A stretch of 60,313 nt of DNA, taken from assembly GCA_021777225.1 (NCBI GenBank), contig JAJYDQ010000015.1, positions 1 to 60,313 on the forward strand, in the 5' to 3' direction. Position numbers and translations under genes: made by a program. This stretch comes from Deltaproteobacteria bacterium (GTDB taxonomy: Bacteria > Desulfobacterota > Desulfomonilia > Desulfomonilales > Desulfomonilaceae). Position 1 is the first letter of the stretch; each line of letters starts with the position of its first letter. The notes under the pieces were generated by a model. That model ran no database searches and was not told the origin of the DNA. It was given only the letters and a program-made list of their open reading frames with translations. Of the stretch, positions 43,448 to 60,313 are shown piece after piece.

Positions 43448-44404
43448 TTATCTTTCAGGACAGCGCTTAACAAAGTCTAAAACATCGGCCAAACTTGCGG
43501 TGGCTACAGCTATGCAACTATCAGCCCCACCGTAATAAATTCTCAGATCATCGTCATGAAGAGTCCAGCCGCAAGGGAAGACAACGTTGCCAACGTCGCC
43601 GCTTTTTTCATATGGTTCTTTGGGGCTGAATGTCCACTGATCAGAGCGTCTTAGCACACGGGTAGGGTCTTCCTTGTCCAGCAGCGCAAGCCCCAGTCGG
43701 TAAAGGCAACCGCCAACGGTCTCTCTAACTCCATGATACAGTATCAGCCAGCCCTCAGAAGTTTCAAGCGGCGGCGACGAGAGTCCAATTTTGTTGGCGT
43801 CCCACCAGCCTCCGGTCCTCGCAGGCATTAGGACTTGATGATCTCCCCAGTGCTTCAGGTCAGGTGAAAAAGATATCCAGATGTGCTTTCGAACGCTTGA
43901 AGCCGGCACCGGCCTATGGAGCATTGCATATCTACCTTTAAACTTGACGGGGAAAAGCGCCGCGTCTTTGTCCTCAGGGGGCATGACAGGACCATGCCTC
44001 TGAAAGTTGATAAAATCCTTGGTCGTGGCAAGGGAGACCAGAGGCCCGGCCTCTGAATAGGCAGTGTACGCGACAACCCACGCTCCAAGGTCCTCCACCC
44101 ACGTTACTCTCGGATCTTCTATTCCCCATGTCTCTTCCGGGTATCTTTCAGGCCACGGAGCAAGTGTCGGCTGTGGATCAATTCCCCAGTCGGTGAGTCC
44201 GTTGGCGCTGCGTGCGGCGCATAAGTGGGAGAATCCTCGGCGATCTTCAACTCTAGCCAACAGCAGATATTGATCATTGACCATTGTAGCCCCTGGATTG
44301 AACACTGAATTGACTGGATATGGCCAGTCCAGACAGGTAAGGATGGGGTTCAGGTCATACCTTTTGAAAAGTGTGCGATAACAGCTATCATGATCATATT
44401 TCAT
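43448..44404 (-). CDS. GH130 family glycoside phosphorylase-like protein, copy 1
   Basis: The 318-residue protein is a five-bladed β-propeller of the GH130 type, with SVFNPGATMVNDQYLLLARV, GIEDPRVTWVEDLGAWVV (the catalytic Asp region), KDAALFPVKFKGRYAMLHRP and, at the end, VVFPCGWTLHDDDLRIYYGG. GH130 members are mainly β-mannoside phosphorylases that make mannose 1-phosphate. It has no signal peptide, so it is cytoplasmic. It follows a GT4 gene after 26 bases on the same strand. A second copy of the same length stands at 58761. The exact linkage cleaved or made is unknown. Confidence 0.9.
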   Translation of the reverse strand: MKYDHDSCYRTLFKRYDLNPILTCLDWPYPVNSVFNPGATMVNDQYLLLARVEDRRGFSHLCAARSANGLTDWGIDPQPTLAPWPERYPEETWGIEDPRVTWVEDLGAWVVAYTAYSEAGPLVSLATTKDFINFQRHGPVMPPEDKDAALFPVKFKGRYAMLHRPVPASSVRKHIWISFSPDLKHWGDHQVLMPARTGGWWDANKIGLSSPPLETSEGWLILYHGVRETVGGCLYRLGLALLDKEDPTRVLRRSDQWTFSPKEPYEKSGDVGNVVFPCGWTLHDDDLRIYYGGADSCIAVATASLADVLDFVKRCPER

Positions 44405-44430
44405 ATTTAGGATATCCCAAGTTTTTTCCG

Positions 44431-45663
44431 TCAGAATTCGAGAGGGAGCACGACCGCTTGTCCGGACGCAATTGATTGGCGAGCCAACTCGTAAGCTTCA
44501 TTGTACTGTTTGGCTACCAGGTCCCAGGAAACCACATGATCAAGGTACTCTTTGAGGTTTTCTCCGAGTTTCAACCGGAGTTTTTCGTCACAGGCCATCC
44601 TGATAACCTGGTCCTTTAACATTTTTTTGTTGGTGAAAAGCAATCCACCTTCGCTCTCCAGTGTCTGAGCTGTCAGCCCTTCCATCGGAGCCGTCGTTAT
44701 ATATGGTTTGTTGAGCGCAATGATTCGTGCAAGCGTTCCGGATTGGGTTTCATCGGTTGAGGGCAAAACTATGAAGTCACAAACCGCCATGACTTTGTAA
44801 TAAATTTCTCCGCGTGGAATAAACTCGAAGTAGTGGGCCAGTCCTTTTTTTTCCAGGGCTGCTAGCTGCTCCAGGTAATTTTCGTAGTCCGTCAAGTGGT
44901 TCGGATCTCTCATGGATCCCGCCGCCAAAAGGTCCCATTCTTGGCCTGTCCTTTCCAGTATTTCCGCATGAATATCTTCCCACATAGAAGTCAGGATATC
45001 CCAACGCTTATTGGACTGTATCCACCCAACCATGCCCACGAGACGATTACCCAGGTATGGGATTTGGTCCAGAACCAACTCTTCCTTGAGGACTGGAACA
45101 TCCTTAATGGCCCAGCGTCGATCAGGCCTAGCCCCATGAGGGACCACCATGACGTTTCTGGGGGTTCGCCAGCCTTGTCCTACGAAATTCCAGTCCAGGC
45201 GCCATTTTTGATAATGGCACTTGAATAGTACTACCCTTGCCCGTTCACACATCTGGTAGATGAAATTGGCCTCAAAACTCGTCAGTCTACCGTGGACGGT
45301 ATGCGGTTCGACAATAGTGGAGAATTCATTAATTGCGTCAAGCAGATCCAGGAACCCTTCGTTTCCATCTCCATGGCCTCTTGAATCATAATACTCGTAC
45401 AAACCGTATTCATGTTCCAGATGAACTGCGTAAGGGCGCAGTCTGTGTACTTTTATGGCCACGGTCTTCCACCAGTCCCTCTTGGACATGTCAATGATAG
45501 GAAATACACCTTCGCCCTGACCGTCTGTGTGACTTATTACCAGCACTTCCCTGTCAGGATTATGCTTTTGGATGAATTCTCTTGCTTCCTCGGCAAAAGT
45601 CGCAATTCCACAAAGACGTGGAGGGTAGCTGGAAATAATAACTATTGGGCCTGAATCACTCAT
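44431..45663 (-). CDS. GT4-type glycosyltransferase
   Basis: The protein of 410 residues has the GT-B fold: N-terminal IVIISSYPPRLCGIATFAEE, with the donor-side domain after about residue 210 (LVGMVGWIQSNKRWDILTSM) and the nucleotide-sugar site around FIVLPSTDETQSGTLARIIA. An unusual trait is a HGRLTSFEANFIYQMCERAR stretch in the acceptor domain. ATG 45663 is preferred for the AAGGA six bases upstream. It stands between a GT4-hairpin fusion gene and a GH130 gene, so it probably builds the same glycan. The sugar is not readable; mannose is likely from context. Confidence 0.88.
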   Translation of the reverse strand: MSDSGPIVIISSYPPRLCGIATFAEEAREFIQKHNPDREVLVISHTDGQGEGVFPIIDMSKRDWWKTVAIKVHRLRPYAVHLEHEYGLYEYYDSRGHGDGNEGFLDLLDAINEFSTIVEPHTVHGRLTSFEANFIYQMCERARVVLFKCHYQKWRLDWNFVGQGWRTPRNVMVVPHGARPDRRWAIKDVPVLKEELVLDQIPYLGNRLVGMVGWIQSNKRWDILTSMWEDIHAEILERTGQEWDLLAAGSMRDPNHLTDYENYLEQLAALEKKGLAHYFEFIPRGEIYYKVMAVCDFIVLPSTDETQSGTLARIIALNKPYITTAPMEGLTAQTLESEGGLLFTNKKMLKDQVIRMACDEKLRLKLGENLKEYLDHVVSWDLVAKQYNEAYELARQSIASGQAVVLPLEF

Positions 45664-45753
45664 AGAAAGTCCTTTTTTCGTCAACGTTTTAGGAATGGCT
45701 GTTAGAAACCTTCACCACGTCAATCACAATTTCAGCGTGAAGATGATTCGGTT

Positions 45754-48033
45754 CTATTTGGAACGCAAAATTCTTTGAGCCTTAAGTTCGGAAAGGCCAA
45801 GCACTGCGAGAAGGTAGCACACAACTGATTCTGCGCCTTGGTTGGCGCTGATTCCGCTGGAGTCGATCCCGTCGGCCACCGAACCGTCAGCAAAATCATA
45901 GAGAGCGGTATTGAGTCTATTTCGACCCAGGAACCATTCAAAAGCAAGTCGGGCGAGTTCCAGGTACTTGTAGTCGTTCGTCACCTCTGAAGCCGCAACG
46001 TAGGCTTCAACCAGATAGCCTGCGTCTATGGGTTGTTGTCCGAAGAGAGCCTTTTCTCCACCTTTAGGGTACCAACCTTCATTGCCGACGAGGTCAAAAT
46101 AGACCCCATTCATTTGCTCTTTGGTAAGGAAGTCAAGCGATTGCAGAGCGACGTTCAGGTATTCATCGCTTTTGGTCACCTGGTAAGCACGTAGCAACGC
46201 CTCTGGGATTTTAGCGTTTCCATAAGCCAATACGTCCTCGAACCACTCCCAGTCAGCGCTATTGTTTTCTTTGTACAGGCTAACCAGATCATCAGCTAAC
46301 AAAACGAGAAGTCGCTTGAACTGACTTGCTCCTTCGAATTTTTGCAAGAGATGGTACATGCCTATAATGGCATAGGCTTTGGCCCTTGGCGATTCAACTT
46401 CGAGTATTCTGGGGGCGGCCTTTGCCATCATATTTTGAGTCAGGGCCCGTATTTGCTCTTTTGTTCCCCATCTGACAACGGTCCCTAGACCCCAAAAGAC
46501 CCGACCTAACGTGTCTTCGCTCCCATGGTCATCCATGAATCTTCGATCATAGGACATGAAATTGTGAAAATGGCCTGTTTCCGTCTGAGAGTGATTCAGA
46601 AAGCTAATATAAGTATGAATTAAAGGAAGTATCTGCTCGTCTTTCTGCTGATTATAACAAGTCATTAGCGCTGCGAGTCCCCGACCGACATCATCCGCGC
46701 TGTATCCATGATCGCGATCCGGTATGCCGAAACACGCATGTTGCAACAAACCGACGTCGTCTGATAAAGATATCAAATGATCGAGTTTGATATCTGGGAG
46801 GGTAATCAGTGGAAGCATCTTTTGCTTCCAGGAAGATGTCACATCCAGGTTTCTCCGTTCGCCGAGCATTTGTAAAAACATTTCCACGTACTGACGCCCT
46901 ACCTCCCGCCACACCATTGTCCGTCCGTACTCGTATGCCGCTTTCCGAATTCTATTGCGCCGCAAGGAATCGCCGATCAAGTCGTTCAGCGCAGTGGCCA
47001 TACCTTTCACGTCGCTGAAATCTACCAATACTCCCCTTGCATCAGAGAGCAATTCTTCGGCATACCAATAGGGCGTAGACACTACAGCTTTGCCCATACC
47101 CACAGCGTAAGCGAGCGTTCCGGAAGTTATTTGTTCCTTTGCCAGATAGGGAGTCAAATAAACGTCACAACAAGACATGTATTCCGTCAATTCCTGCAGA
47201 TCAACGAACCTGTTCTGGAACACCACATTGTCGGCTATCTTCAGGTCAATAGCTTTTCGTTCAAGGGATAATCGATACTGTTCGCCGTGAACCTTCTTTA
47301 CTTCAGGATGGGTTGCGCCAAGAATGATGTAGACAATGTTCGGGTATTTCTCCACAACGTAGGGTAGGGCTTCAAGCGCCGTTTCTATTCCCTTATTGGG
47401 ACTGATCAACCCGAAGGTCAGAAGAACTGTCAGACCTTCCACATTGAACTGTTCCTTATAGAAGTTGGAATCAACAAAGGGAACATCAGGAACGCCATGA
47501 TGAATTATTGAGATCTTGTCTTGGGGAACGCCATATATCTCTCGGAGCATCCTGGCCCCCTTTTGGCTCATGGTGACAAGTCGCTGGGAGCAGTTTATGA
47601 CGTCATCCAGAGCTTCACGGTAATCGTTGGGAGGATTTTCCAGGATCGTGTGGAGGGTGGTTATTACCGGTTTTTTCAAATGAGACAGCAGCACGGAAAG
47701 GTACTTGCCAGCGTCGCCTCCATAGATTCCAAATTCGTGCTGCAGGCTGACTATCTGTGCCGATGAACCGTTAAGATATTCGGCAGCGCGTGCGTAATCA
47801 CGAATTACGTTTTTTCGAATCTCAAACGTAACCTCGGGTGGGTAATCGTACCCTCCTGCTCGGTCAGTAATAGCAACGACCCGATACAGCTTGTTTCCCA
47901 TTTCCTGAGCGATGGAAGTACTAAGATCATTAGTGAATGTCGCAATTCCGCAAGCTTTTGGCACGAATGTCCCTACGTAAATTACGTCGAGATCTGATAC
48001 CAATACGGGTTTTTCCAGTTTGATTCTTCTCAC
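45754..48033 (-). CDS. GT4 glycosyltransferase fused to an (α/α)6-type domain
   Basis: The protein of 759 residues has two parts. Residues 10-380 or so are a GT4 enzyme: VPKACGIATFTNDLSTSIAQ, VSLQHEFGIYGGDAG, FGLISPNKGIETALEALPYV and PYLAKEQITSGTLAYAVGMG. Residues 400-759 form a helical-barrel-like domain with HFHNFMSYDRRFMDDHGSED and DWEWFEDVLAYGNAKIPEAL, of the kind seen in six-hairpin glycosidases. The GTG at 48033 has AGGAG five bases upstream; frames opening at 48084 or 48096 have no ribosome site. A broken, about 85% similar copy of its middle lies at 60041-60313. Transfer plus trimming of one glycan by a single protein is inferred. Confidence 0.85.
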   Translation of the reverse strand: MRRIKLEKPVLVSDLDVIYVGTFVPKACGIATFTNDLSTSIAQEMGNKLYRVVAITDRAGGYDYPPEVTFEIRKNVIRDYARAAEYLNGSSAQIVSLQHEFGIYGGDAGKYLSVLLSHLKKPVITTLHTILENPPNDYREALDDVINCSQRLVTMSQKGARMLREIYGVPQDKISIIHHGVPDVPFVDSNFYKEQFNVEGLTVLLTFGLISPNKGIETALEALPYVVEKYPNIVYIILGATHPEVKKVHGEQYRLSLERKAIDLKIADNVVFQNRFVDLQELTEYMSCCDVYLTPYLAKEQITSGTLAYAVGMGKAVVSTPYWYAEELLSDARGVLVDFSDVKGMATALNDLIGDSLRRNRIRKAAYEYGRTMVWREVGRQYVEMFLQMLGERRNLDVTSSWKQKMLPLITLPDIKLDHLISLSDDVGLLQHACFGIPDRDHGYSADDVGRGLAALMTCYNQQKDEQILPLIHTYISFLNHSQTETGHFHNFMSYDRRFMDDHGSEDTLGRVFWGLGTVVRWGTKEQIRALTQNMMAKAAPRILEVESPRAKAYAIIGMYHLLQKFEGASQFKRLLVLLADDLVSLYKENNSADWEWFEDVLAYGNAKIPEALLRAYQVTKSDEYLNVALQSLDFLTKEQMNGVYFDLVGNEGWYPKGGEKALFGQQPIDAGYLVEAYVAASEVTNDYKYLELARLAFEWFLGRNRLNTALYDFADGSVADGIDSSGISANQGAESVVCYLLAVLGLSELKAQRILRSK

Positions 48034-48362
48034 GCCTGCTCCTGCATATTTTAATCGCTTGTCGGGGGCGCCTCGCTCAGGCATGATGCAATTCAATAAT
48101 TAAGTGGTCCTGTTGAGCGCCTGTTACTTGACGATGGGGTACTTCTCGAACATTGGACAGTTTTTGTCAAGCCCAGTCGAGGGGCTTCACCAAAACCATC
48201 ACAATTTTTCTCAAGTTGATTAGTCAGGCTTTTAATGAGGAATCAGAGTTGTCCTGGCTGGCTCACTCACAAAAAGAGGAGTATCCTGAGATAAAAATCA
48301 GACTGGTAGCGCCGGAATTGATCTAAATTGGGCGCCAATTCACTCAGGGAAGGCAAATCATC
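48034..48362. other. Divergent gap between the GT4-fusion gene and creA
   Basis: No gene, RNA or clear repeat is seen in these 329 bases; they should hold two divergent promoters. A ribosome site GGAAGG is present 9 bases before creA. Confidence 0.35.
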
Positions 48363-48851
48363 ATGAAAAAGATTGGAATTATTCTCGGCGGAGGAATCCT
48401 TTTGGTCATCGTGATCTTCGGGTGGTGGGTCTTAAGTCGCCCAGAACGCGGCACGACCGGCTCGGTCAGCACCCATTTTCGCTGGCTCGGCCCTAACGAC
48501 AAGATTGTGGTAGATGGGTTCGACGACCCGAAAGTCCAAGGCGTCGCATGTCACATCGCGCGTGCGGAAACGGGAGGGGTGAAGGGTCAATTGGGAGTGG
48601 CCGAGGATACGAGTGATGTTAGCATCGCATGCCGCCAGGTCGGTCCGATCAAGATAGTAGGAGAACTCAAGGACGGCGAGACAGTCTTCGACGAGCACCG
48701 CAGCCTCGTGTTCAAAAAACTTCATGTCGTGCGGTTCTTCGATCGCAAACGCAATGTTCTAGTTTACGTGGCGTATAGCGATCGGGTTATCGAAGGTAGC
48801 CCGAAGAACAGCATCAGCACGGTGCCGATAATGGGATGGCCTGCCCCATAG
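48363..48851 (+). CDS. creA: CreA family protein
   Basis: The 162-residue protein has an N-terminal hydrophobic anchor ([20 protein letters not shown]) and the CreA domain: [20 protein letters not shown], then [15 protein letters not shown], a [14 protein letters not shown] strand pair and the closing [17 protein letters not shown]. CreA is an exported protein of unknown function in many proteobacteria. Its base composition and codon choice (more GC-rich) differ from the neighbours, which may mean transfer. Its last 50 or so bases and the DNA beyond recur in decayed form at 49878-49960. Confidence 0.9.
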
Positions 48852-48910
48852 ATTCGGATAGCGCAGCCCCTTATCTGCGCCAGATGGTTTGAAGTTGATG
48901 AACTAATAAG
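48806..48910 (+). repeat. Direct repeat unit A (creA 3' end)
   Basis: AAGAACAGCATCAGCACGGT starts the unit within creA. The same 20 bases recur at about 49884, followed by a similar CCGATAATG, TGGCC, CCATA and ATTCGGA run and later CCAGATG-TTTGAAGT. The two units flank the toxin-antitoxin pair. Confidence 0.75.
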
Positions 48911-48941
48911 GGCATGTGTCTGTTTTCAGTCTTTCATAAAT

Positions 48942-49163
48942 TCAGGCTGATTTTACCTTTTTGGCGCCATGGTCCTTAATTCCAGGAATCAGAGATTCTG
49001 AGTGTTTTTTTCTAAAAGCTAAGACAAGAGGATCAGTTCTAGCTGTTGAATTGAGAAAATCGACATAGGATTCAAATTCTTCTTTCCTGCTCTCATATTC
49101 CTGCATCAGTTTTGCCTGAGCCTGTCCTTTCATTTCAACACAATCAAAGACTTTCATTTTCAT
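48942..49163 (-). CDS. Antitoxin of a PIN toxin-antitoxin pair
   Basis: The 73-residue protein (MKMKVFDCVEMKGQAQAKLM at its start, later DPLVLAFRKKH) resembles small antitoxins that accompany PIN-domain toxins of this type. It should bind and block the toxin. AAGGAGG stands six bases before the ATG. It overlaps the end of the toxin gene by 20 bases and lies downstream of it, the reverse of the usual antitoxin-first order. Confidence 0.75.
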   Translation of the reverse strand: MKMKVFDCVEMKGQAQAKLMQEYESRKEEFESYVDFLNSTARTDPLVLAFRKKHSESLIPGIKDHGAKKVKSA

Positions 49164-49614
49164 CAGATACCTCCTTAGGACTCAAGATAGTCATTGTCCT
49201 ATAACCGAATCGGATGTTTACACTATTGAATCCCCTAATACGGTTGAAATTTACAATGTGTCTGAAATTCCAACTGAGGATAAGATCTGCACCGGCAACG
49301 GTTGCCGCTGACACGTGTAATGCATCGCTGAAAGAAGCCTGCCCCAAGACTTCAGCAGCAATATATTCATTCGCAAGATCCCGCACCTCATCATCAATCG
49401 GTACTTCTTCAATTGAACTATCTGGGAGATTTAACATAACAGACTGTACTTCTTTAGGTGATCCGGAAAGTTCCCTGAGAGTTTCAGTTGAAAGCAGAAC
49501 TATGAATTCGCCATTGGTAACCTTATTGAAAAAGTTCAGGCTGTTTTCTTTAAACTCTTCATCCTGAGCTCCACCAAAAACTGAAGTATCAGCATAAACT
49601 CTTATCTGATGCAT
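49144..49614 (-). CDS. PIN-domain toxin (VapC-like ribonuclease)
   Basis: The protein of 156 residues has the PIN fold: YADTSVFGGAQDEEF with the first acidic residue, STETLRELSGSPKEV with the second, and FSDALHVSAATVAGADLILS with the third, then WNFRHIVNFNRIRG. Such toxins cut RNA. The ATG at 49614 has GGAG seven bases upstream and is preferred to an ATG at 49632. It is the first gene of the two-gene module; the module sits between two creA-derived repeats. Confidence 0.85.
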   Translation of the reverse strand: MHQIRVYADTSVFGGAQDEEFKENSLNFFNKVTNGEFIVLLSTETLRELSGSPKEVQSVMLNLPDSSIEEVPIDDEVRDLANEYIAAEVLGQASFSDALHVSAATVAGADLILSWNFRHIVNFNRIRGFNSVNIRFGYRTMTILSPKEVSDENESL

Positions 49615-49877
49615 TAACAATCTCCATTGCATAGAATCTGAAACTTCTTCGTGCCCTCACTAGAAAAAATTGCTCACAGATGATTTGCCGTCTGTGATTT
49701 TGGGGTGCCTCCAGTAGTTCAGGGTTGGTCACTGCAACGCTATCTGTCAATAATACTGTAAAGGAAAATCTATAGCCAACTCTTTTGTCGTTCCTTTGCC
49801 TTTTGCCGGAGGAGTTCCCAAACCATGTCGGTCCAAACAATATGAAAAAAGGGAAGGCTGTCCCAAATAATCATAGA

Positions 49878-49960
49878 AAAAGAACAGCATCAGCACGGTT
49901 CCGATAATGAAGTGGCCGGCGCCATAAATTCGGACTTCCTTAGCTCCAGATGATTTGAAG
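49878..49960 (+). repeat. Direct repeat unit B (decayed creA 3' end)
   Basis: This unit matches unit A at 48806-48910: 20 identical bases (AAGAACAGCATCAGCACGGT), then a matching run with scattered changes, then CCAGATGATTTGAAGT. It has no open creA frame. The surrounding gap from 49633 to 50045 shows no other gene. Confidence 0.75.
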
Positions 49961-50090
49961 TGGAGGTTATATTCCAGATGCGCATACCAGAATTATTACA
50001 CTTTAAGTTCATTTGTCTTTTTCTTTCCTTTAAGCTGCGTTACAATTGATGGGTAATTACCAATCAGTGAACTTGACTGGAACTATTCTA

Positions 50091-50810
50091 ATGCGTTTCA
50101 GGACATACACTCATGTAGCGCTCTTGATTCTTGGGGTGATGGCGCCTTCCGTCCACGCAGAGTTTCTCCCATGGAACATTCCTGTCAACTCATCTTTTAG
50201 AGTTGGATACCTTTACGGTTCCCAGGTTGTGAGTACCTTCTCGGATTACGGTTCTGGATTGGTGAAGAGCGCCGTTGAGGTCATCAGGGCCAACAAAGAC
50301 GTGGATCTGGTAATCCAGGAGGTCCACAGAAAATGGGACCCTGCCAGAGCTCAGAAAACCACGGCGAAGGTCCTCGCCAAATTTGGGAACCAGGTGGACG
50401 CATTCATCTGCAATAATGACAGGCTCGCCACAGGAGTGATCGCAGCTCTGAAGGAGCGGGGATTGGATCATATTGATCGTGTATTCGTTGCTGGGGCGGA
50501 CGCGGGCCTCGTGAACATCAGATATATCGTTCAGGGGAAACAAGCCGTCGATGTGTGGAAGATGATTGACCCATTGGCGGAAACGGCTGCCGAAGTGGCT
50601 GTTAAGCTCGCGAGGAACCCGGGAAAGAAGATAACCGAAATAATCAAACCTGATAAAATGGTCAACAATGGAACTATGGAGATCCCCACCATAGTTACTC
50701 CTGTGAAACTGGTCACGAGGGACAACATCAACGAGACACTTATCAAGGGTGGCGTCTACACGACGAACCAGATTTACGGCGCCGAGCCGATATCAGAAAA
50801 CCTTAGGTGA
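50091..50810 (+). CDS. XylF-like sugar-binding protein, one lobe only
   Basis: The protein of 239 residues has a signal peptide (MRFRTYTHVALLILGVMA, cleavage near VHA). After it comes only what matches the C-terminal half of periplasmic sugar-binding proteins of the XylF/RbsB group: NQVDAFICNNDRLATGVIAA, VFVAGADAGLVNIRYIVQGK, LAETAAEVAVKLARNPGKKI, IPTIVTPVKLVTRDNINETL. The N-terminal lobe (about 120-140 residues in XylF) is missing. No permease or ATPase gene is adjacent. It may be a deletion derivative or an exported half-protein with another role. ATG at 50091 is chosen for the signal peptide; frames open from 50046. Confidence 0.75.
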   Translation: MRFRTYTHVALLILGVMAPSVHAEFLPWNIPVNSSFRVGYLYGSQVVSTFSDYGSGLVKSAVEVIRANKDVDLVIQEVHRKWDPARAQKTTAKVLAKFGNQVDAFICNNDRLATGVIAALKERGLDHIDRVFVAGADAGLVNIRYIVQGKQAVDVWKMIDPLAETAAEVAVKLARNPGKKITEIIKPDKMVNNGTMEIPTIVTPVKLVTRDNINETLIKGGVYTTNQIYGAEPISENLR

Positions 50811-51026
50811 CGGAGCGGCTTTTCGCATATTTTGAAGATGCTTTGTAATTTCCCAACAACTGAGCGCAAAAAGACGGGCGGGTTTCTTTTATAGTGTTTC
50901 ACCAAAGGGCAGCTCTAAAAATTGTTTAATTTCTCTGCCCAATGCTATGTGCCCGACGACAATTAAACCGGTTCACATTGTTGACAGATTCTTTGTTTCT
51001 GGCAAAGGGCCATGCGAATTCCTTAA

Positions 51027-52814
51027 TCATGGAGTATTACAGGTCCCAGAAGTACACGATTGGGTAGGGTCAGCTGGACACGTCGAAGGACACCACGCTG
51101 GGGCCGGCTGTGGTATGTCTGGTAGTGGTTGTCCAATATACAGCGTATAATTAGTGCTTGGAATAGCCGGTGGAACACAATAAGTTGGCGTAGGGTTATA
51201 TTGAGTTCCTCCCTTGCAGTCGTTGGTCGAGGTTGGACATGGTGAGCCGCCACTCGGAGACTGAGCTGTGCAAATGTCACAACCCCACGGAAAAACTCCA
51301 GGATTTGTTTTATTGGGCTGTGGACAGCAAACCATGATAGGTGTCCCGGAGTCCGGCTTAATCTCCCCTGGATAATTGAAACCATTGACCAAACTAATGT
51401 CGTAGGTATCATTTCCGCCCCCAGCACACAGGTTGAGTTCAAACTGTGTGACAATGCACCCGGTTTGCGGAAGTGCATCGGCGCTTATAGTGAGAGGCAT
51501 ATATTGCGTTGTGCAAGGAAAATTTACCACTATTTGGTCGACTGCGGCAGGTGGGGTAGGCGCCGGTATGGTTGTAGTTATCATTAAAGGATTGCCGCCG
51601 GGATCCATACTCCAGCCGGGAAAACTACCGGGCAGGGTATAGCCACCCGAGCCTGGTTGAAACACCATCCACAACTGGATCTGGTGTCCCGTTTGGTTGA
51701 CAATGGTGATAGTCTGACTGCCCAGACACGTCTGAGCCTTTGTTGAGAGATATTTTAATGTGGCCGTCTGAGTGGTTTGTCGCCAGTTCCGATTCGCCTT
51801 TGCTTGGGTGAGCGTGGTCATATTCCGAGGACTCTGGAATACCGGTTTTGGCATTACGAACGGGCTCTTGCCAGCCACAAGGTTCTCCAATTGAAAGCCC
51901 GTATTCATGAAAGCGGCTACAGACTGGTAAACCTGATTGGCGTTATCATAACCCACATCATATTTCACGACGTACATGCCATCTCGGGATTTAAGCTCAG
52001 CGCCTGCGTAATAGCCGGATATGTTAGAACCGCAATCAAACTTGTAACCAGTGACACTCAATCGGAGATCAGGACCACCGTTGTATAATTCGTGGGAATA
52101 ACCGGCTTGAAAATCGAAGTTGGAATTACCGAAACTGGCAGTGGCCGCCGCATCGGCATAAGCGGGATTGCTATTGAAAATTGAAGCGTCAAGCGCTTTT
52201 CCATACCAATTGAAAAGGAGATCAATCGCGTCATCGCCGTGAACCATAAACGCCATCTCACCACCAGCGCTTCCAGATGGATACCAGGCTCCGGACAACT
52301 TCGTCGTGTCGAAAAATGAATTTACCCCGAGCATCGTGTGCTTGCCGAACATCCTCCGATATCCACCACCAAAACAAAGTTCAACACTGTTGTTTGGGGA
52401 ACCGGGTTGAGCAATCGAGAGGCTTTGAAACTCTCCATGCGCCTCCCCATAAATTGTTGAGTCAGTTCCAAGCTTGAAAGGAAGCAGGTAGTCAACGGAA
52501 GCTGTCCCAGCCCGTAACTGAGGCCCAAACGTATAATCGTATCCAAACTGAAGATTCGGGATTTTCGGCAAAATACCCTGAAACATGCCGCTGGAGATTG
52601 AAATGTTATCGCTACCTCTCGGTCCGACTAAAGAACTTCCCGGGAACCCCAGTGGATTAGATGGATTCAAATCAGGGGCGACTGACGGCCCACTCGTCCT
52701 TACAGCGTCCGCTGCGCTGTAGGGTGTTTGCTGAATGCCCTGGGATACTGCCAACAAAGGAGAGATGCACACAACAACAAAAGCTAGAGCAAAAACCCTG
52801 AAAAGTCTCTTCAT
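51027..52814 (-). CDS. Inverse-autotransporter-like β-barrel with thaumatin-like domain, copy 1
   Basis: The 595-residue protein has a signal peptide (MKRLFRVFALAFVVVCISPL). At about residues 90-310 is a β-barrel of the intimin/invasin type (ELCFGGGYRRMFGKHTMLG, SFFDTTKL, AGYSHELYNGGPDLRLSVTG). A linker (residues 330-365) leads to a C-terminal thaumatin-like domain. That domain opens QTITIVNQTGHQIQLWM and contains FELNLCAGGGNDTYDISLVN, which matches the thaumatin YDISL-GFN core, and closes STNYTLYIG. A Pro/Cys-rich tail of about 30 residues ends it. Inverse autotransporters put C-terminal passengers outside the cell. ATG 52814 has GGAGG six bases upstream. The combination is inferred from motifs, not from a search. 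Confidence 0.8.
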   Translation of the reverse strand: MKRLFRVFALAFVVVCISPLLAVSQGIQQTPYSAADAVRTSGPSVAPDLNPSNPLGFPGSSLVGPRGSDNISISSGMFQGILPKIPNLQFGYDYTFGPQLRAGTASVDYLLPFKLGTDSTIYGEAHGEFQSLSIAQPGSPNNSVELCFGGGYRRMFGKHTMLGVNSFFDTTKLSGAWYPSGSAGGEMAFMVHGDDAIDLLFNWYGKALDASIFNSNPAYADAAATASFGNSNFDFQAGYSHELYNGGPDLRLSVTGYKFDCGSNISGYYAGAELKSRDGMYVVKYDVGYDNANQVYQSVAAFMNTGFQLENLVAGKSPFVMPKPVFQSPRNMTTLTQAKANRNWRQTTQTATLKYLSTKAQTCLGSQTITIVNQTGHQIQLWMVFQPGSGGYTLPGSFPGWSMDPGGNPLMITTTIPAPTPPAAVDQIVVNFPCTTQYMPLTISADALPQTGCIVTQFELNLCAGGGNDTYDISLVNGFNYPGEIKPDSGTPIMVCCPQPNKTNPGVFPWGCDICTAQSPSGGSPCPTSTNDCKGGTQYNPTPTYCVPPAIPSTNYTLYIGQPLPDIPQPAPAWCPSTCPADPTQSCTSGTCNTP

Positions 52815-52947
52815 GACGAGCCTCCAGCGGAAGACGAGAACAATCGATATAAGCTTCGCTCCATCATAATGGCTACGTCCAAATCCCTTACCTACTAAGT
52901 TGTAACCGCAGATGACTTCCAAATAATACATTTATATTACTGATGTA

Positions 52948-52976
52948 ATTATAACGTACTGTCATGCTATTGTAAA
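52948..52976 (-). promoter_or_regulatory. Promoter of copy 1
   Basis: On the minus strand TTTACA (52971-52976) and TATAAT (52948-52953) are 17 bases apart. This gives a leader of about 127 bases, matching copy 2. Confidence 0.7.
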
Positions 52977-53060
52977 CTGATTTATTAATAAGTTGTTATA
53001 ACATTCATATAATTATAGACATATTGCTTGGCACTGTTAGCAGACAGCGTGGATGTTTTA

Positions 53061-54782
53061 TCATGGCAGTGTTCCTCCAATATACACGGTATAATTGCTG
53101 CCGCTATTTTGATGTAGGTTACAATCAATATTAGTTGGATGATTTTCTCCTGCAGTCGGGGTGCAGGCCAATGGAGGGGTGGCAACAGAGCAACCAGTCC
53201 ACCCATACCCGTAGACGCCAGGAGTGTTTGAATTGCCAGTGGCGGCGGTAGCCTTGGCAGGACCACCTGTGCCGGTCGTAGTAATCTCCACGGGATTGTC
53301 AAAGCCGTTAACCAGACTAATGTCGTAGGTGTCCATTAGTGGTGGCCAGTTATCACACAGCCCAAATTCAGCCAGAGTCTGAGGTGGTCCCCAAATGCAT
53401 CCGTTCCATGGAACCTGAGTGACGGAAAGAGCAATATGCGCTCCGTGCCCAAGACTATCCGTTTGTGTGCAGGGAAAGTTTATTACTAGAGTGCTGTTTG
53501 CGTTCACGGTTGTATACAAAACGGGCCGGGCGCCCGGGACCGGCGGCGGAACCAGAGACCACCCGGGAAAACTACCGGGCAAGGAATAACCACCCGATTG
53601 AACGTTACCATATGTATCTATGTTGAAGCCCATGTACAAAGTGATTTCGCTATTCAGGTTGTTTACAACGGTGATAGTCTGAGGACCGCAGTTACACGTC
53701 TGAGCCTTTGTTGAGAGATATTTTAATGTGGCCGTCTGAGTGGTTCGTCGCCAATTCCGATTCACCTTTGCTTCGGTGGCTCGTGTCATTTCCCGGGGAC
53801 TTTGGAACACCGGCTTTGGCATTACGAACGGACTCTTGCCAGCCACCAGGTTCTCCAATCGCAAGCCCATATTCATGAAAGCGGCTACTGACTGGTAGAC
53901 CTGATTAGTGTTGTCATAACCGACATCATATTTAGCGACGAACATACCATCCCGGGACTTGAGTTCAGCGCCTGCGTAATAGCCGTATACGTCTGAATCC
54001 ATATCAAACTTATAACCAGTGAAGCTCAATCGCAGATCAGGTCCGCCGTTATATAATTCATGGGAGTAACCAACTTGAATATCGAAGTTTGAATTACCGA
54101 AGCCGTCTTCGCCTGGCGTCGGGGGAACGTAACCGAGGTTGTTGAGCGATGAAGCGTCAAACGCTTTCCCGTACCAATTGAAAAGGAGATCAATAGCGTC
54201 ATGGCCTGGAACCAGAGCCGCCATCTCAACACCTACGCTTCCAGATGGATACCAAACGCCAGTCAGCTTTGTTGTGTCGAAAAAGGAATGTAACCCGACC
54301 ATGGTGTGATTGCCGAACATTCTCCGATATCCACCGCCAAAACAAAGTTCCACACTGCTGTTTGGAGACCCGGGTTGGGCAATCGAGAGACTTTGGAACT
54401 CTCCATGCGCTTCCCCGTAAACGGTGGAGTCAGCCCCAAGCTTTAAAGGAAGCAGGTAGTCAACGGAAGCTGACCCAGCCCGTAACTGAGGCCCAAAGGT
54501 ATAATTATATCCAAGTTGAAGATTAGGAATTTTTGGTAAGATACCCTGAAACATGCCGCTGGAGATTGAAATGTTATCGCTACCTCTCGGTCCGACTAAG
54601 GAACTTCCTGGAAATCCTAGTGGATTAGATGGATTCAAATCAGGGGCGATTGACGGCCCACTCCGCCTTACTGCGTCCGCTGCGCTGTAGGGTGTTTGCT
54701 GAATACCCTGGGCTGTAGCCAATAAAGGAGCGAAACACACAACGAAAAGAGCTAGAGCAAAAACCCCGAAAAGTCTCTTCAT
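53061..54782 (-). CDS. Inverse-autotransporter-like β-barrel with thaumatin-like domain, copy 2
   Basis: The 573-residue paralogue of the gene at 51027 has a signal peptide (MKRLFGVFALALFVVCFAPL). Its barrel part is nearly identical to copy 1 (ELCFGGGYRRMFGNHTMVG, VGYSHELYNGGPDLRLSFTG). The thaumatin-like part is about 180 residues and starts PQTITVVNNLNSEITLYM; it holds TLAEFGLCDNWPPLMDTYDI followed by SLVNGF, the best thaumatin match of the two, and ends SGSNYTVYIGG. The Cys-rich tail of copy 1 is absent. ATG 54782 has GGAGG six bases upstream. It lies upstream of copy 1 on the same strand, in tandem. Confidence 0.8.
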   Translation of the reverse strand: MKRLFGVFALALFVVCFAPLLATAQGIQQTPYSAADAVRRSGPSIAPDLNPSNPLGFPGSSLVGPRGSDNISISSGMFQGILPKIPNLQLGYNYTFGPQLRAGSASVDYLLPLKLGADSTVYGEAHGEFQSLSIAQPGSPNSSVELCFGGGYRRMFGNHTMVGLHSFFDTTKLTGVWYPSGSVGVEMAALVPGHDAIDLLFNWYGKAFDASSLNNLGYVPPTPGEDGFGNSNFDIQVGYSHELYNGGPDLRLSFTGYKFDMDSDVYGYYAGAELKSRDGMFVAKYDVGYDNTNQVYQSVAAFMNMGLRLENLVAGKSPFVMPKPVFQSPREMTRATEAKVNRNWRRTTQTATLKYLSTKAQTCNCGPQTITVVNNLNSEITLYMGFNIDTYGNVQSGGYSLPGSFPGWSLVPPPVPGARPVLYTTVNANSTLVINFPCTQTDSLGHGAHIALSVTQVPWNGCIWGPPQTLAEFGLCDNWPPLMDTYDISLVNGFDNPVEITTTGTGGPAKATAATGNSNTPGVYGYGWTGCSVATPPLACTPTAGENHPTNIDCNLHQNSGSNYTVYIGGTLP

Positions 54783-54915
54783 GACGAGCCTCCAGCGGAA
54801 GACGAGAACAATCGATATAAGCTTTGCCCCATCATCATGGCTACATCCAATTCTCTTCACTAATGGTTCATAACCGTAGATGAATTGGGAATGCTAAACT
54901 TATATTAGTATAGTC

Positions 54916-54944
54916 ATTATAACATATTAACAGACATATATGAA
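54916..54944 (-). promoter_or_regulatory. Promoter of copy 2
   Basis: On the minus strand TTCATA (54939-54944) and TATAAT (54916-54921) are 17 bases apart. Leader length is about 127 bases, as in copy 1. Confidence 0.65.
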
Positions 54945-55289
54945 CTGAAATATGAACAATTATAAGGTTGGTAAATTTAATTGTCCTTTATGCTCGAGTG
55001 TAATTGTCGATGAACACACATCACTCAAATAAATCATGGAGGGCTTAAGATGAGGGAGGATTGAAGAGGGACAATCCGGACCGTCGTCTGGAATTGTCAG
55101 ACAAGCCACATCTGATGCTTATAGGATTGACTAGATTCAGTTTTCAGATTCGTCGCACGGGTCGCCTTGATACACGAGGAACGCTAATAGATAATACTTA
55201 TCTTAATGATATAACTAACTAATTATCAACATTAGCGAGAATGGGCCAAAGAAACGAACTGGTAGAATTCCTTTGTTCTGTTATGGGTA
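54945..55289. other. AT-rich gap without clear genes
   Basis: No recognised feature. A TTG-opened frame of about 54 codons on the plus strand (near 55061-55223) has no family and a poorly spaced ribosome site, so it is not called. Confidence 0.35.
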
Positions 55290-55670
55290 TCATTGCTTGG
55301 CTCCGCGAGCTTTCAGGAAGTCTACCACTTGTGTGTCACCATGTTTTGAAGCCTGAAATAGCGCTGTCTTGCCATTAATTTCCTCCGCGTTTACGTCAGC
55401 GCCTTTTTCCAGAAAAGGCTTCGCCACTTCAAGTTGACCATATTTAGAAGCCAACGTTAGCGCAGTATAGTTTCTATTCCCTCCCTTAGCATTGACATCC
55501 ACTCCTTCATCCAGAATGCGTTTGAACCTTTCCCAACGTCGGTTATCGGCAGCTTTTATCAAATATTTATCTTCTGCCTTGACTACATTCGTAACGACCA
55601 CAAAGACAATGACGAATCCAATCACTACAAATTCTAGGATGATCCCGGTTGTCTTGATCCACTTCCGCAT
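55290..55670 (-). CDS. Membrane-anchored ankyrin-repeat protein
   Basis: The 126-residue protein has one N-terminal membrane helix (ILEFVVIGFVIVFVVVTNVV) and about three ankyrin repeats: KYLIKAADNRRWERFKRILD, then NYTALTLASKYGQLEVAKPF and KTALFQASKHGDTQVVDFLK, with GADVNAEE turns. Ankyrin repeats bind proteins. The domain is likely in the periplasm. The ATG at 55670 has AAGGA upstream; longer frames start inside the region of the neighbouring broken gene. Partner unknown. Confidence 0.8.
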   Translation of the reverse strand: MRKWIKTTGIILEFVVIGFVIVFVVVTNVVKAEDKYLIKAADNRRWERFKRILDEGVDVNAKGGNRNYTALTLASKYGQLEVAKPFLEKGADVNAEEINGKTALFQASKHGDTQVVDFLKARGAKQ

Positions 55671-55735
55671 TACTGATTTCCTTCCATCAATTTGGTAGTT
55701 TCTACCAGCGTTCGGGGATGTCTCTGAACTGCTCG

Positions 55736-57038
55736 TTACAGAAGAAACTTCCAGAGAGGGACATAGCGGATGAGGCATCCATCGATGGTTTCTTCCGCCT
55801 CCATGTCTTCCGTGACGATCATGCCTTCCTTCAAGTTAAAAAATGCAAGGGCGCGAAGAAGGGCCCTGAGTTCTCGGTGCTTAGTTTTTGCCTCTGACAA
55901 ATCAAAGGAGACCTGGCAGACATCCTTGATCTTCCCCTTTTCGATTGTTACGAAATCGACTTCGTATGCTCGGGCGTCTTTCCAGTAGAAAATATCGGCT
56001 CCCCCATGCAAGAATTTCAGAAACACCATATTTTCCATGATTCTGCCAAGGTCTTCATTAAATCGGAAGGAAACTGCGTTGCGGATACCTGTGTCGACGC
56101 AGTATATTTTCCTGGGATTCTTTTCCTGCTCTTTCAGCGAATAAGAAAAACGCCTGACCAAAGAAAAAGAGAAAGGCCTGATTCAAATAGTCTGACCATC
56201 TCTCGACTGTATCTACCGGAATATTCAAGAAGCCTTTGATGCTGTTGTAGGATATGAGCGACGCTGCATTGGTCATATAATATTTGTAAAGTGTCCGGAG
56301 ATTGTCTACCTTGGCTATACCATAACGCTCCACGATATCGCGGGTCAGAATATCTGCGGCATAACCCAGAAGAATCTCCTGTTTATTCATCCCAAGAACT
56401 ACGGCCGGCAACCCGCCCCATTGCATGAACTCTTGGATTTCTCTACGGATCTCGTTTTGTCGTCTGATCATATCGAGATGGTCTTTATAGACCATCCCCT
56501 TGAAGGACAGAAATTCGCCAAAATTTAAAGGATAGATCGCAGCATCGAGATGACGGCCCGTCAACAAGGCGCCCAATTCCCGACTGAGTAATTTTGACGA
56601 AGACCCAGTGATGAATATCTGCCGCCCGCCTTGATCGATCATCTGGCGAACAAACCGCTCCCATGCACGAACATTTTGAACCTCGTCCAGGAAGAGATAA
56701 ATTTTCCCGTTTGGCTTAAGGAATGTCAAATAGGCGGTCAACAAACGGTTCATGAATTCAGGAGTGAGTTCACCAAAGAAGCGGGGATCTTCAAAGTTAA
56801 CTTAGAGCGTGTTTTGTCGCGGAATATCTTGAGCAATCAGACGCCGGATCAATTGGTTCATGATTGTCGATTTTCCGCTCCGCCTTGGGCCGATAAGTGT
56901 GACGGCCAGCCCGTCTTGGGCGAGGCGGAAAATATTCTCCAGGTATGATGGGCGTTCGACACCGCAGAAGCGGTCCCCATTCCAGAAATTAACATCCAAA
57001 AGGATTTCGATGATTTTATCTTGTGAGAGATTCTGCAT
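55736..57038 (-). pseudogene. Broken AAA ATPase with DUF4143-type C-terminal domain
   Basis: The remains read as one gene in three pieces. The first (56802-57038) has Walker A VTLIGPRRSGKSTIMNQL, then a TAA where a Tyr codon is expected (at 56802-56804). Past it the same frame goes on VNFEDPRFFGELTPEF and the arm KIYLFLDEVQNV (Walker B) and ITGSSSKLLSRELG. A one-base shift near 56165, in a T run, moves to the last frame: VRRFSYSLKEQEKNPRKIYC, then the DUF4143-like nuclease-fold tail FYWKDARAYEVDFVTIEKGK. This ATPase class is common, often multicopy, and of uncertain function. One nonsense change plus one frameshift makes real decay likely. Confidence 0.85.
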
Positions 57039-57405
57039 TATATCAACCTTATCGGTTATTATATATACTTAATAACCGATATGACATTTAATTTTGCATC
57101 AAGCGCCCTCCGATTACAGGCATTTAATTGAGGAACAGTTCCTTAGTACTCGACGACGATGCGATTTGGCTGATGAAATTCATGAAAACCCGGAAAAAGA
57201 TATTTACATCACGATGTAGTATTCATTTTCAACCCTTATTTCAATCGAATAGGCGAAGGGGTGTTGACATTCTGGCTCTTCCAGACCAATACTGATTTAC
57301 TTGAGAATGAGTATTTTAATGTTCACAAGAAACGGTTGTTTTTTGTTTTTGATGCGCCAAAAGGCGACATAATAACGAAACGCCTTACGGACTGAGGTAC
57401 TGACT
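57039..57405. other. Divergent gap with one promoter candidate
   Basis: No gene is seen. TTGACA at 57264-57269 with AATACT 18 bases later is the best plus-strand promoter candidate for the GT4-cupin gene. A small CGCC-AAAA-GGCG hairpin lies near 57355-57366. Confidence 0.35.
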
Positions 57406-58758
57406 ATGCGTATTGCTATGTTGGCCCCAATAGCGTGGCGAACCCCCCCTCGACACTATGGACCATGGGAACGGGTTGTCTCCCTTCTCACAGAAGGTCT
57501 TGTCGCAAGAGACGTTGACGTCACACTTTTTGCCACGGCGGATTCGGAAACAAGTGGGAGAATTCACGCCATTGTTCCAAGGCCTTATGAGGAAGACAAA
57601 AGCCTTATTCCCAAGGTCTGGGAATCTCTTCATATTAGCGAGGTTTTTGAGAGAGCTGAAGATTTTGACTTGATCCACAATCATTTCGATTTCCTGCCTC
57701 TCACATACTCCGGTCTTGTGAAAAGGCCAGTTCTCACCACGATCCATGGCTTCTCCTCTGAAAAGATCCTGCCCGTTTACAAAAAATATGACAAGAAAAG
57801 TTATTATGTGGCAATCAGCGACTCCGACCGGTCCCCCGAACTTACCTACAGCGCAACCATTCACCATGGAATAGACCTGGAAGCTTTCACTTTCAACCCG
57901 TTAGGTGAAGAATACCTTCTATTCTTTGGCAGAATTCATCCTGACAAAGGAGTTCGAGAGGCGATACAAATTGCTCAATTGGCGAACAGGGATTTGTTGA
58001 TCGCCGGAATAATTCAGGACGAGAAATATTTTGAAACAGAAGTTAAGCCACACCTGAACGGCAGTCAGATAAAGTATGTGGGAATTGTCGGTCCAGACTT
58101 AAGGGATGGCCTTCTTGGTAAGGCGTCGTGTCTTCTGCATCCAATAAGCTTTGATGAGCCTTTCGGTTTGTCCGTTGTTGAAGCCAATGCGTGTGGTACA
58201 CCAGTAATAGCGTTCTCACGGGGCTCCATGCCGGAAATCATAACAGAGGGCGTCAATGGTTTTCTTGTGTCCACCGTATCTGAAGCGGTCGATGCCGTGA
58301 AAAGGATCCACTCGATATCCCGTCCTGCCTGCCGGGCAGTCGCGGAAAAACGATTCTCCAGAGATCGCATGGTTGACGATTATTTAAAAGTGTACAATCG
58401 GATTGTGGAAGAAACAAAGACTATTGATCGCCGTCCCTGGGGATACTATGAAGTTCTTTCTGATCTCCCAGATCACAAGGTAAAACGTATTGTCGTCTAC
58501 CCGGGAAAGAGGCTTAGTTTGCAGCGGCATCAGCGCCGCAGCGAGAATTGGACAATCGTTAGCGGCCACCCTGTCGTTACGCTGGACAGCGAACAGATAC
58601 CATTAGGCCCAGTTGATTCTATACAGATTCCCAAGCACGCGACACACCGCATCTACAATCCTGGTCCTGATGACGCGGTTTTCGTGGAAGTGCAAACAGG
58701 CGATTACTTTGGTGAAGATGACATAGAACGTTTTGAAGACGATTTCGGCCGGGTGTAG
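57406..58758 (+). CDS. GT4 glycosyltransferase fused to a type II mannose-6-phosphate isomerase-like cupin
   Basis: The 450-residue protein joins two domains. Residues 1-335 or so are a GT4 enzyme (RIAMLAPIAWRTPPRHYGPW, FDLIHNHFDFLPLTYSGLVK, LFFGRIHPDKGVREAI, DEPFGLSVVEANACGTPVIA). Residues 345-450 are a cupin like the C terminus of ManC/type II PMI: RPWGYYEVLSDLPDHKVKRI, VYPGKRLSLQRHQRRSENW with the metal-binding His, and a closing TGDYFGEDDIERFEDDFGRV. PMI interconverts fructose 6-phosphate and mannose 6-phosphate; alone the domain may only bind sugar phosphate. GAGG precedes the ATG. It is followed two bases later by a GH130 gene, so both are coupled and probably serve one mannose pathway. 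Confidence 0.9.
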   Translation: MRIAMLAPIAWRTPPRHYGPWERVVSLLTEGLVARDVDVTLFATADSETSGRIHAIVPRPYEEDKSLIPKVWESLHISEVFERAEDFDLIHNHFDFLPLTYSGLVKRPVLTTIHGFSSEKILPVYKKYDKKSYYVAISDSDRSPELTYSATIHHGIDLEAFTFNPLGEEYLLFFGRIHPDKGVREAIQIAQLANRDLLIAGIIQDEKYFETEVKPHLNGSQIKYVGIVGPDLRDGLLGKASCLLHPISFDEPFGLSVVEANACGTPVIAFSRGSMPEIITEGVNGFLVSTVSEAVDAVKRIHSISRPACRAVAEKRFSRDRMVDDYLKVYNRIVEETKTIDRRPWGYYEVLSDLPDHKVKRIVVYPGKRLSLQRHQRRSENWTIVSGHPVVTLDSEQIPLGPVDSIQIPKHATHRIYNPGPDDAVFVEVQTGDYFGEDDIERFEDDFGRV

Positions 58759-59717: not shown

Positions 59718-59751
59718 TCTTGTAAATCCTCCTTCTGTTTTAGCAGAAATG

Positions 59752-60040
59752 TCAAATTTCAAGATTCTCGGCGTGTCGAGCCAGATTGGGCAAAGACAAC
59801 CGCCAATGGATTGCCGCAAGACGTATGGCGAGTGTCACTGCGGCCCCTCTCTGCATTGCCAGACTGTTAGGAATGGATGTCTCCAAAAACATCAAATAGG
59901 AGGCGCCACCGATAAGGCAAGCCGTAGCATGGATTTCTTGCCGGAAAAACAGAAGGATTTTACTGAAAACCCATCCCGCATGATCCATCCCCCTGATCCT
60001 GTAAACATTCCAATCGTCACGGTAATAAGTGGGTTAGGGT
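59752..60040 (-). pseudogene. UPF0126 (TRIC-like) membrane protein remnant
   Basis: The minus strand reads PLITVTIGMFTGSGGWIMRD, the UPF0126/YicG-type G-x-x-T-G-x-G-G-x-x-RD motif. It then reads, after a one-base shift, RQEIHATACLIGGASYLMFL and the closing RLAAIHWRLSLP. Adding one A to the run at 59958-59961 restores a full match of the two halves. The N-terminal half of the family (about 100 residues) is missing. It is joined in frame at 60040 to the GT4 fragment on its right, so this is a break point. Confidence 0.8.
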
Positions 60041-60313
60041 TGAGGTCAATAGTCTTTCTTTCCAGTGATAACCGATACTGCTCACCGCTAACTTTCTTAA
60101 CTCCAGGATGTGTTGCGCCAAGAATGATGTAGACAGTATCCGGGTACTTCTCCAGAACGCAGGGTAGCGCCTCCAGGGCAGTTTCTATTCCTTTATTGGG
60201 ACTGATCAATCCAAATGTAAGGAGAACCGTCAGACCTTCCACGTTGAACTTTTCCTTATAGAAATTGGAATCAACAAAAGGAACATCAGGAACGCCATGA
60301 TGTATGACCGAGA
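60041..60313 (-). pseudogene. GT4 glycosyltransferase fragment, runs off the window
   Basis: The minus strand encodes GVPDVPFVDSNFYKEKFNVE, GLTVLLTFGLISPNKGIETA, LGATHPGVKKVSGEQYRLSL and ERKTIDL. It aligns with the gene at 45754 over 47247-47515 at about 85% nucleotide identity by eye. The frame is open to the right edge, so its start is outside. Homology stops at about 60041, where the UPF0126 remnant begins. The C-terminal half of the enzyme is lost here, so this copy is broken. Confidence 0.88.

Follow-up and report, generated by a model that had tools for sequence, protein, structure and literature searches.

Can GT4 glycosyltransferase and GH130 genes, set close together on one bacterial contig, serve to make and recycle a mannose glycan inside the cell? 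Bacterial GH130 enzymes are known mostly for breaking down outside mannans or N-glycans. The question is raised by a 60,313-bp stretch of DNA (hereafter the window), which is the whole of contig C136 in a genome of 4.0 Mb that is 97.6% complete. Among the matches listed, the closest with names come from Desulfomonile sp. M47 and an unclassified deltaproteobacterial genome bin, so that the genome most likely falls within or close to the Desulfomonilaceae (Thermodesulfobacteriota). The initial annotation described two blocks of such genes and proposed a make-and-recycle system. We found that the two blocks are one locus of five genes, and that these genes recur together in other phyla. Furthermore, we propose that the locus encodes a cytosolic mannose-centred glycan cycle, with a probability of roughly 0.6. 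The five genes are called GH130a, GT4b, GT4aa6 (a GT4-(α/α)6 fusion), GT4cupin (a fusion of GT4 with a phosphomannose isomerase (PMI) domain) and GH130b (Table 1). Compared loci, genomes and contigs carry L-, G- and C-numbers, respectively.

One locus divided by an insertion

Three loci of the same family (L032, L033, and L034) have the five genes as one divergent locus, GH130a<GT4b<GT4aa6 | GT4cupin>GH130b, and 281 bp separate GT4aa6 from GT4cupin in L033. In the window, GH130a<GT4b<GT4aa6 are followed by an insert of about 9.1 kb and then by GT4cupin>GH130b. Homology to L033 stops at window position 48176 and restarts at 57264, and the same points are only 47 bp apart in L033. Thus, the window locus gained about 9.1 kb between its halves. 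Since the five genes form a single locus in the sister genomes, the window holds one locus split by an insertion, and the second block, which had been read as a repeat of the first, is the other half of it. Two copies of one block are ruled out, because the paralogues differ (GH130a and GH130b are about 41% identical) and the halves are joined in the relatives.

At the first block, the GT4, GT4-(α/α)6 fusion and GH130 genes are adjacent and intact, as initially described. At the second, the GT4 and GH130 genes are present, but the PF01050 domain of the GT4 protein had been overlooked. In addition, an ORF called at 59892-60311 on the minus strand is no true gene: homology there is confined to 60040-60313, an internal 91-codon scrap of the GT4aa6 gene.

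Both GH130 proteins exceed the PF04041 cut-off of 26, and GT4cupin matches PF01050, the type II PMI domain, with 103.8 bits (cut-off 23.6). The GT4 assignments follow from group 1 glycosyltransferase domains in Pfam and from the GT-B fold of the GT4b model. Neither a signal peptide nor a membrane segment was detected by hydropathy in the five proteins. This agrees with the initial annotation, and all five proteins look soluble.

Recurrence of the five genes

A genome collection was scanned with the GT4aa6 alignment. There were at least 566 related loci in Bacteria and Archaea, and the neighbourhoods of the best 80 of these were examined. They cover Desulfobacterota, Chloroflexi, Planctomycetes, Verrucomicrobia, Bipolaricaulota, KSB1, Firmicutes, Methanosarcina, Thermoplasmata, and Lokiarchaeota, and GT4aa6 is conserved in full length in them. 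A GH130 gene lies within 4 kb in 57 of the 80, and in 32 of the 42 loci that have at least 4 kb on both sides. Among cultivable organisms, a Methanosarcina sp., Desulfobacter vibrioformis and Anaerolinea thermolimosa have parts of the module. When the neighbouring ORFs of the 80 loci were clustered, no further partner appeared in more than six loci, the commonest being sugar-nucleotide genes, and no transporter, flippase or secreted glycosidase recurred beside the module.

GT4b was found in 22 of 395 genomes of the phylum, spread over many families. Most orthologues are 66-99% identical to it, and the three most distant are 59-62% identical. Among the 14 GT4b loci with enough room, GT4aa6 adjoins in all 14, and GH130a is present in 13 and GT4cupin in 12. 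The unidirectional order GT4aa6-GT4b-GH130a-GT4cupin-GH130b was observed in L035, L146, L149, L150, L152, L156, L158, and L160. With optional genes in parentheses, the order in other families of the phylum is GT4aa6-GT4b-(PMM)-GH130a-GT4cupin-GH130b-(GMP), where PMM is phosphomannomutase and GMP is GDP-mannose pyrophosphorylase. The initial idea was to be given up if the gene blocks failed to recur in other genomes; they recur across phyla. The same genes stand together across phyla, and thus the association is far beyond chance.

Link to mannose and GDP-mannose

The cupin of GT4cupin is the only PF01050 match and the only recognised PMI in the window genome, from which type I PMI and phosphoglucose isomerase/PMI enzymes are absent. 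On contig C49 of this genome, PMM and a GMP without a PMI domain lie side by side. Elsewhere, these genes are part of the operon. For instance, PMM lies between GT4b and GH130a in L146, L150, L154, and L156, and GMP follows GH130b in L146, L150, and L156. In distant loci there are GMP (L064 and L074), a GMP-PMM fusion (L091), GMP followed by PMM (L099), and a GMP-PMI-PMM fusion (L111).

The operon GMPs, scored with TIGR01479, match only positions 1-349 of this 467-position GMP_PMI model, and the GMP of the window genome covers positions 2-349. The PMI half that they lack is the part fused onto GT4cupin (model positions 342-466). Type II PMI/GMP enzymes (TIGR01479, ManC/AlgA-like) have a C-terminal PMI domain homologous to this cupin; however, here the two halves are separate genes, and the PMI half is joined to a glycosyltransferase.

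Thus, the association with mannose that was first suspected is borne out by the PMI domain in the locus and by PMM and GMP within the operon elsewhere, and the mannose link of the locus is strong. These genes would set the locus amid fructose 6-phosphate, mannose 6-phosphate, mannose 1-phosphate and GDP-mannose.

The two GH130 proteins

We aligned the GH130 proteins with characterised sequences taken from PDB alignments, including TM1225, UhgbMP, Lin0857, and Teth1788/1789. In this alignment, Y-D, R-N and S/N-R mark the known β-1,4 enzymes, and E-D, K-D and H-R the known β-1,2 enzymes. The signature of GH130a is EDKDHRKHD (E96 D97, K146 D147, H163 R164, K205, H224, and D295), identical to that of Teth514_1789. 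Its E-D, K-D, H-R pattern, found in the window and in all nine comparison rows, is the β-1,2 pattern. EDKD is common to four β-1,2 enzymes (YDRN in β-1,4 enzymes), and GH130a has both the Glu and the Lys of that type, the specificity Lys column (BT3780 Lys199) being placed by the alignment. GH130a is therefore predicted to be a β-1,2-type mannoside phosphorylase-like protein. The signature of GH130b is EDRNDRKHD, with E-D, R-N and D-R in every member. The Glu is kept, but Arg-Asn replaces Lys-Asp in all relatives, and GH130b does not have the complete β-1,2 signature. This hybrid pattern is absent from every characterised enzyme compared and is undescribed.

The phosphate-site residues of UhgbMP, which we take to be R150/R168/K212, were position-checked in the alignment. 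The corresponding basic residues are kept in GH130a (K146/R164/K205) and GH130b (R145/R163/K202), as is the catalytic Asp (D97 and D98, respectively), whose loss would have spoken against the initial proposal. GH130 hydrolases are without the three basic residues (PMC4599007); we called phosphorylases by this rule, comparing the hydrolases by their description rather than by alignment. A secreted GH130 β-mannosidase was rejected, since all of the basic residues are kept and no signal peptide was seen.

In a FastTree phylogeny, the module-associated GH130a proteins formed one clade (n = 48, support 0.999) and the GH130b proteins another (n = 17, support 1.0), and neither clade had a characterised member in the tree. 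The deep supports were 0.39-0.6, so the point at which the two clades join the characterised enzymes is not fixed. NCBIfam models of β-1,2-mannobiose phosphorylase also match the GH130 proteins, with scores below the equivalog cut-offs.

Many GT4aa6 genes have a third type of GH130 as a neighbour, which is longer (about 490 aa) and has an additional N-terminal region of about 240 aa. Its pattern is E-D, K-G, S-R (EDKG-SR-Q), and the third basic residue is mostly Gln. In addition, contig C14 of G057 (L023) has a 901-aa open frame with about eight weak GH130-like propeller repeats.

The three glycosyltransferases

The closest solved structure to the GT4 domain of GT4cupin is glucosylsucrose synthase TeGSS (7FG9, E = 2.9e-74), a UDP-glucose α-1,2-glucosyltransferase that makes stress oligosaccharides (PMC9909042). 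Tyr18, Arg176 and Lys181, whose catalytic roles are taken from TeGSS (PMC9909042), are intact in the window protein, as they are in each of the 44 copies compared from module loci. However, unlike TeGSS (PDB 7FG9/7FGA), GT4cupin has a PMI-type cupin fused to the GT4 domain and is sited with GH130, not beside sucrose-phosphate synthase.

Four GT4-PMI copies of the same family lie apart from any GH130 gene, in G011, G013, G014, and as a second copy in G010; no GH130 match was found in G011, G013, or G014. Tyr18 is lost in three of the four, and the equivalents of Arg176 and Lys181 in all four, whereas the PMI domain is kept in every one. A GMP-like gene, identified from its sequence, adjoins the fusion in G011 and G014. 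Read most simply, the glycosyltransferase half would act together with the GH130 module, and the PMI half with GMP. The decay of one half without GH130, while the other persists next to GMP, is a natural experiment on the fusion of pathway and product genes.

For GT4b, no solved relative was found by sequence. Its model (pLDDT 86) has VIA-align Z scores of about 30 to BshA, sucrose-phosphate synthase, HepE, MshA, and PimA. The nearest solved structures to the GT4 domain of GT4aa6 are PimA-type GDP-mannose enzymes.

The C-terminal domain of GT4aa6, modelled by AlphaFold2 with a mean pLDDT of 95, matches (α/α)6 barrels. The VIA-align Z scores are 39.5 to the uncharacterised 7TEM, about 32 to AGE epimerases, 28 to GH76, and 25.8 to MmpH. 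D468, D469, D742, N752 and E756 (full-length numbering) are invariant or nearly so; D468 and D469 precede helix B, in the first loop between helices, and E756 begins the last helix. The MmpH-type Asp in the αA-αB loop and the base Glu were compared with these by helix position. The AGE catalytic His, in contrast, presumably lies in the second half of the barrel, and beyond domain residue 30 no His is invariant or 90% conserved in 79 sequences. We therefore set aside an AGE-type or cellobiose 2-epimerase despite the similar fold, and a glycosidase-type active site appears to fit the modelled domain better than an epimerase one. Phosphorylases of the GH65/94/149/161 type, which are also (α/α)6 proteins, were not among the structure matches listed, which excludes nothing. 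We found no characterised function for a GT4-(α/α)6 fusion in the open-access literature. With at least 566 such loci, one set of assays would annotate many genes.

Proposed glycan cycle and its alternatives

In the proposed cycle, the three retaining GT4 enzymes would draw on nucleotide sugars, probably with GDP-mannose among them, to assemble an oligosaccharide or a short polymer. GT4 enzymes retain configuration, and α-linked products are expected from them. Thus, the β-mannosyl step should be due to GH130 in reverse with mannose 1-phosphate, or to another enzyme. The GT4 enzymes might make an acceptor or backbone, which GH130a and GH130b would cap or extend with β-mannose from mannose 1-phosphate. 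At high phosphate, GH130 phosphorolysis would free the β-mannosyl units as mannose 1-phosphate, and PMI, PMM and GMP would join this to fructose 6-phosphate and to GDP-mannose. The (α/α)6 domain may trim or process the same glycan, and the role could be that of a reserve, a solute or a GDP-mannose buffer. What the analysis shows is the gene set with its order and recurrence, the retained active-site residues and the linkage to PMI, PMM and GMP; activities, glycosidic linkages, product and role are predicted.

The initial make-and-recycle idea thus stands in part. The mannose link, the recurrence, the catalytic residues and the lack of signal peptides and of a recurring transporter or flippase support it, but the GT4 enzymes as makers of β-mannosides do not fit. 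Storage, which had also been suggested, is unproven, and the window genome has two GT35 α-glucan phosphorylases. GT35 is also present in module-bearing relatives, so the system is not a simple glycogen replacement.

Several points weigh against the cycle. The enzymatic activities are predictions, and the source of the β-mannoside is unproven because the GT4 enzymes are retaining. The closest structure to GT4cupin uses UDP-glucose, and thus at least one of the glycosyltransferases may not use GDP-mannose. In the window genome, PMM and GMP are on another contig than the locus. The PMI cupin has QRHQRRSENW in place of QxHxHRxEHW, without the second His of the metal motif and with ENW for EHW; the second His is also absent in some standalone and GMP-adjacent PMI domains. 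Finally, GH130 is missing within 4 kb of GT4aa6 in 10 of the 42 well-flanked loci.

The alternative that survives best overlaps with the cycle and differs in its product, which would be a small compatible solute or signalling oligosaccharide (like glucosyl- or mannosyl-glycerate or glucosylsucrose) instead of a reserve polymer. We regard it as rather unlikely. The similarity of GT4cupin to glucosylsucrose synthase (PMC9909042) and the fold similarity of GT4b to trehalose, sucrose-phosphate and mycothiol/bacillithiol synthases would suit such a product. However, no gene for sugar-acid or sucrose synthesis recurs nearby, and the GH130 proteins suggest turnover of a β-mannosyl end. Sequence cannot separate a solute from a reserve.

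It is improbable that the locus helps to make a surface or lipid-linked glycan (O-antigen, exopolysaccharide or S-layer glycan) that GH130 trims or caps. GT4 enzymes and GDP-mannose are common in such synthesis, and β-1,2-mannose is present in some O-antigens (PMC4264767). Nevertheless, genes for an initiating sugar-phosphate transferase, a flippase, a polymerase or an ABC exporter do not recur around the module, its five proteins look soluble, and it occurs in methanogens as well as in Gram-negative bacteria.

We give even less credence to salvage, in which the GH130 proteins would only degrade β-mannooligosaccharides taken up from outside, and the resulting mannose 1-phosphate would go into GDP-mannose, an idea put forward for Thermoanaerobacter. 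The Thermoanaerobacter cluster likewise combines two GH130 genes, GMP and GT4 (PMC4264767), and GMP and PMM join the five-gene module too. However, that cluster has an ABC transporter and GH5, of which no counterpart recurs beside the module, and the constant partners here are three synthetic glycosyltransferases, with GT4b among the best conserved genes. Chance neighbourhood, conceivable for two large families, is refuted by the recurrence of all five genes in one order across families and phyla and by the coupled loss of glycosyltransferase residues where GH130 is absent.

If the proposed cycle is true, many environmental bacteria and archaea hold an unrecognised internal mannose glycan, and the conserved operon would couple GH130 phosphorylases with three glycosyltransferases and a complete GDP-mannose pathway. 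More tentatively, and with the odds somewhat against it, the system might be a widespread prokaryotic counterpart of mannogen, that is, a GT4-made intracellular mannose glycan with GH130 turnover, in which mannose 1-phosphate and GDP-mannose would be stored under the control of phosphate.

Comparison with known systems

We found no description of the five-gene set in the open-access literature (subscription journals were outside the search), and the nearest precedent there for GH130, GMP and GT4 together is the Thermoanaerobacter cluster Teth514_1785-1796 (PMC4264767). As in the present case, mannose 1-phosphate is tied to GDP-mannose there, and the GH130 proteins have no signal peptides (PMC4264767). 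However, no (α/α)6-fused GT4, GT4-PMI fusion or GT4b has been reported from it, whereas the window locus has three GT4 genes, no transporter and another GH130b signature.

Two further systems may serve as functional analogies. The first is the Leishmania mannogen cycle, whose enzymes share β-1,2-mannoside phosphorylase chemistry, a related five-bladed propeller and mannose 1-phosphate (PMC8950772). The initial annotation took them for GH130 relatives, but they belong to GT108, which is fold-related to GH130 and a separate family (PMC8950772). Moreover, that cycle is eukaryotic and has no GT4 partners, and for the window locus a polymer is only a possibility. The second is the mycobacterial methylmannose polysaccharide with ManT and MmpH (PMC9883506), an intracellular mannan made by a GT4 enzyme and recycled by an (α/α)6 glycosidase. 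Both of these folds are fused in GT4aa6. However, the mycobacterial system has separate genes, no GH130, and α-1,4 linkages with methyl groups, and the (α/α)6 domain of GT4aa6 is nearer to 7TEM and AGE epimerases than to MmpH.

Features of the locus and the inserted region

Table 1. Positions of the locus genes and of related features, in window coordinates unless a compared locus is named
Feature	Position	Strand	Basis
GH130a, putative β-1,2-type mannoside phosphorylase-like, 318 aa	43448..44404	-	PF04041, 199.7 bits
GT4b, predicted retaining glycosyltransferase, GT-B fold, about 410 aa	44431..45684	-	Pfam GT4 domains
GT4aa6, 780 aa; GT4 at residues about 36-410, C-terminal (α/α)6 at about 424-780	45754..48096	-	Pfam
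(α/α)6 domain of GT4aa6	45757..46827	-	Predicted structure and fold matches
Inserted region, about 9.1 kb, parting the locus halves	48177..57263	.	Homology to L033; Pfam
GT4cupin, 450 aa; GT4 at residues 1-335, PMI-type cupin at 342-445	57406..58758	+	PF01050, E 8e-30
GH130b, second phosphorylase-like GH130, 318 aa	58761..59717	+	PF04041, 188.8 bits
Scrap of GT4aa6 gene at contig end, non-working	60040..60313	-	85% nt identity to 47240-47513; 89% aa identity to residues 196-286
Third GH130 type	L087 12676-14157; L091 6460-7959; L120 12671-14164; others		
Degraded GT4-PMI fusions	L172 7948-9309; L173 7477-8841; L174 8032-9387; L175 8460-9818		

The ORF of GT4b opens at a TTG (45684), and the ATG at 45663 agrees with the homologues.

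According to Pfam, the insert contains genes for a CreA family protein, a PIN domain, a truncated sugar-binding protein, two paralogous ORFs, an ankyrin protein and a broken AAA/DUF4143 ATPase. At its two edges, where signs of a mobile element were sought, direct and inverted repeats of at least 9-11 bases were absent. The truncated Peripla_BP_4 sugar-binding protein (50046-50810) is apparently the remnant of a transporter gene, and the AAA_14/DUF4143 ATPase gene (55736-56753) is broken into two overlapping frames. The two paralogous ORFs (51027-52931 and 53061-54860) lie in tandem and are 83% identical in nucleotides over 1.4 kb. Both have a signal-like N-terminal stretch, an outer-membrane-barrel-like middle, and weak thaumatin-domain matches near the C-terminus.

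In addition, the end of contig C139 (L039 18202-18874) has a second copy of the 3′ end of GH130b and its downstream sequence, 90% identical to window 59378-60313. This copy, together with the GT4aa6 scrap, suggests either that the locus has a second, diverged copy or that strains are mixed in the assembly.

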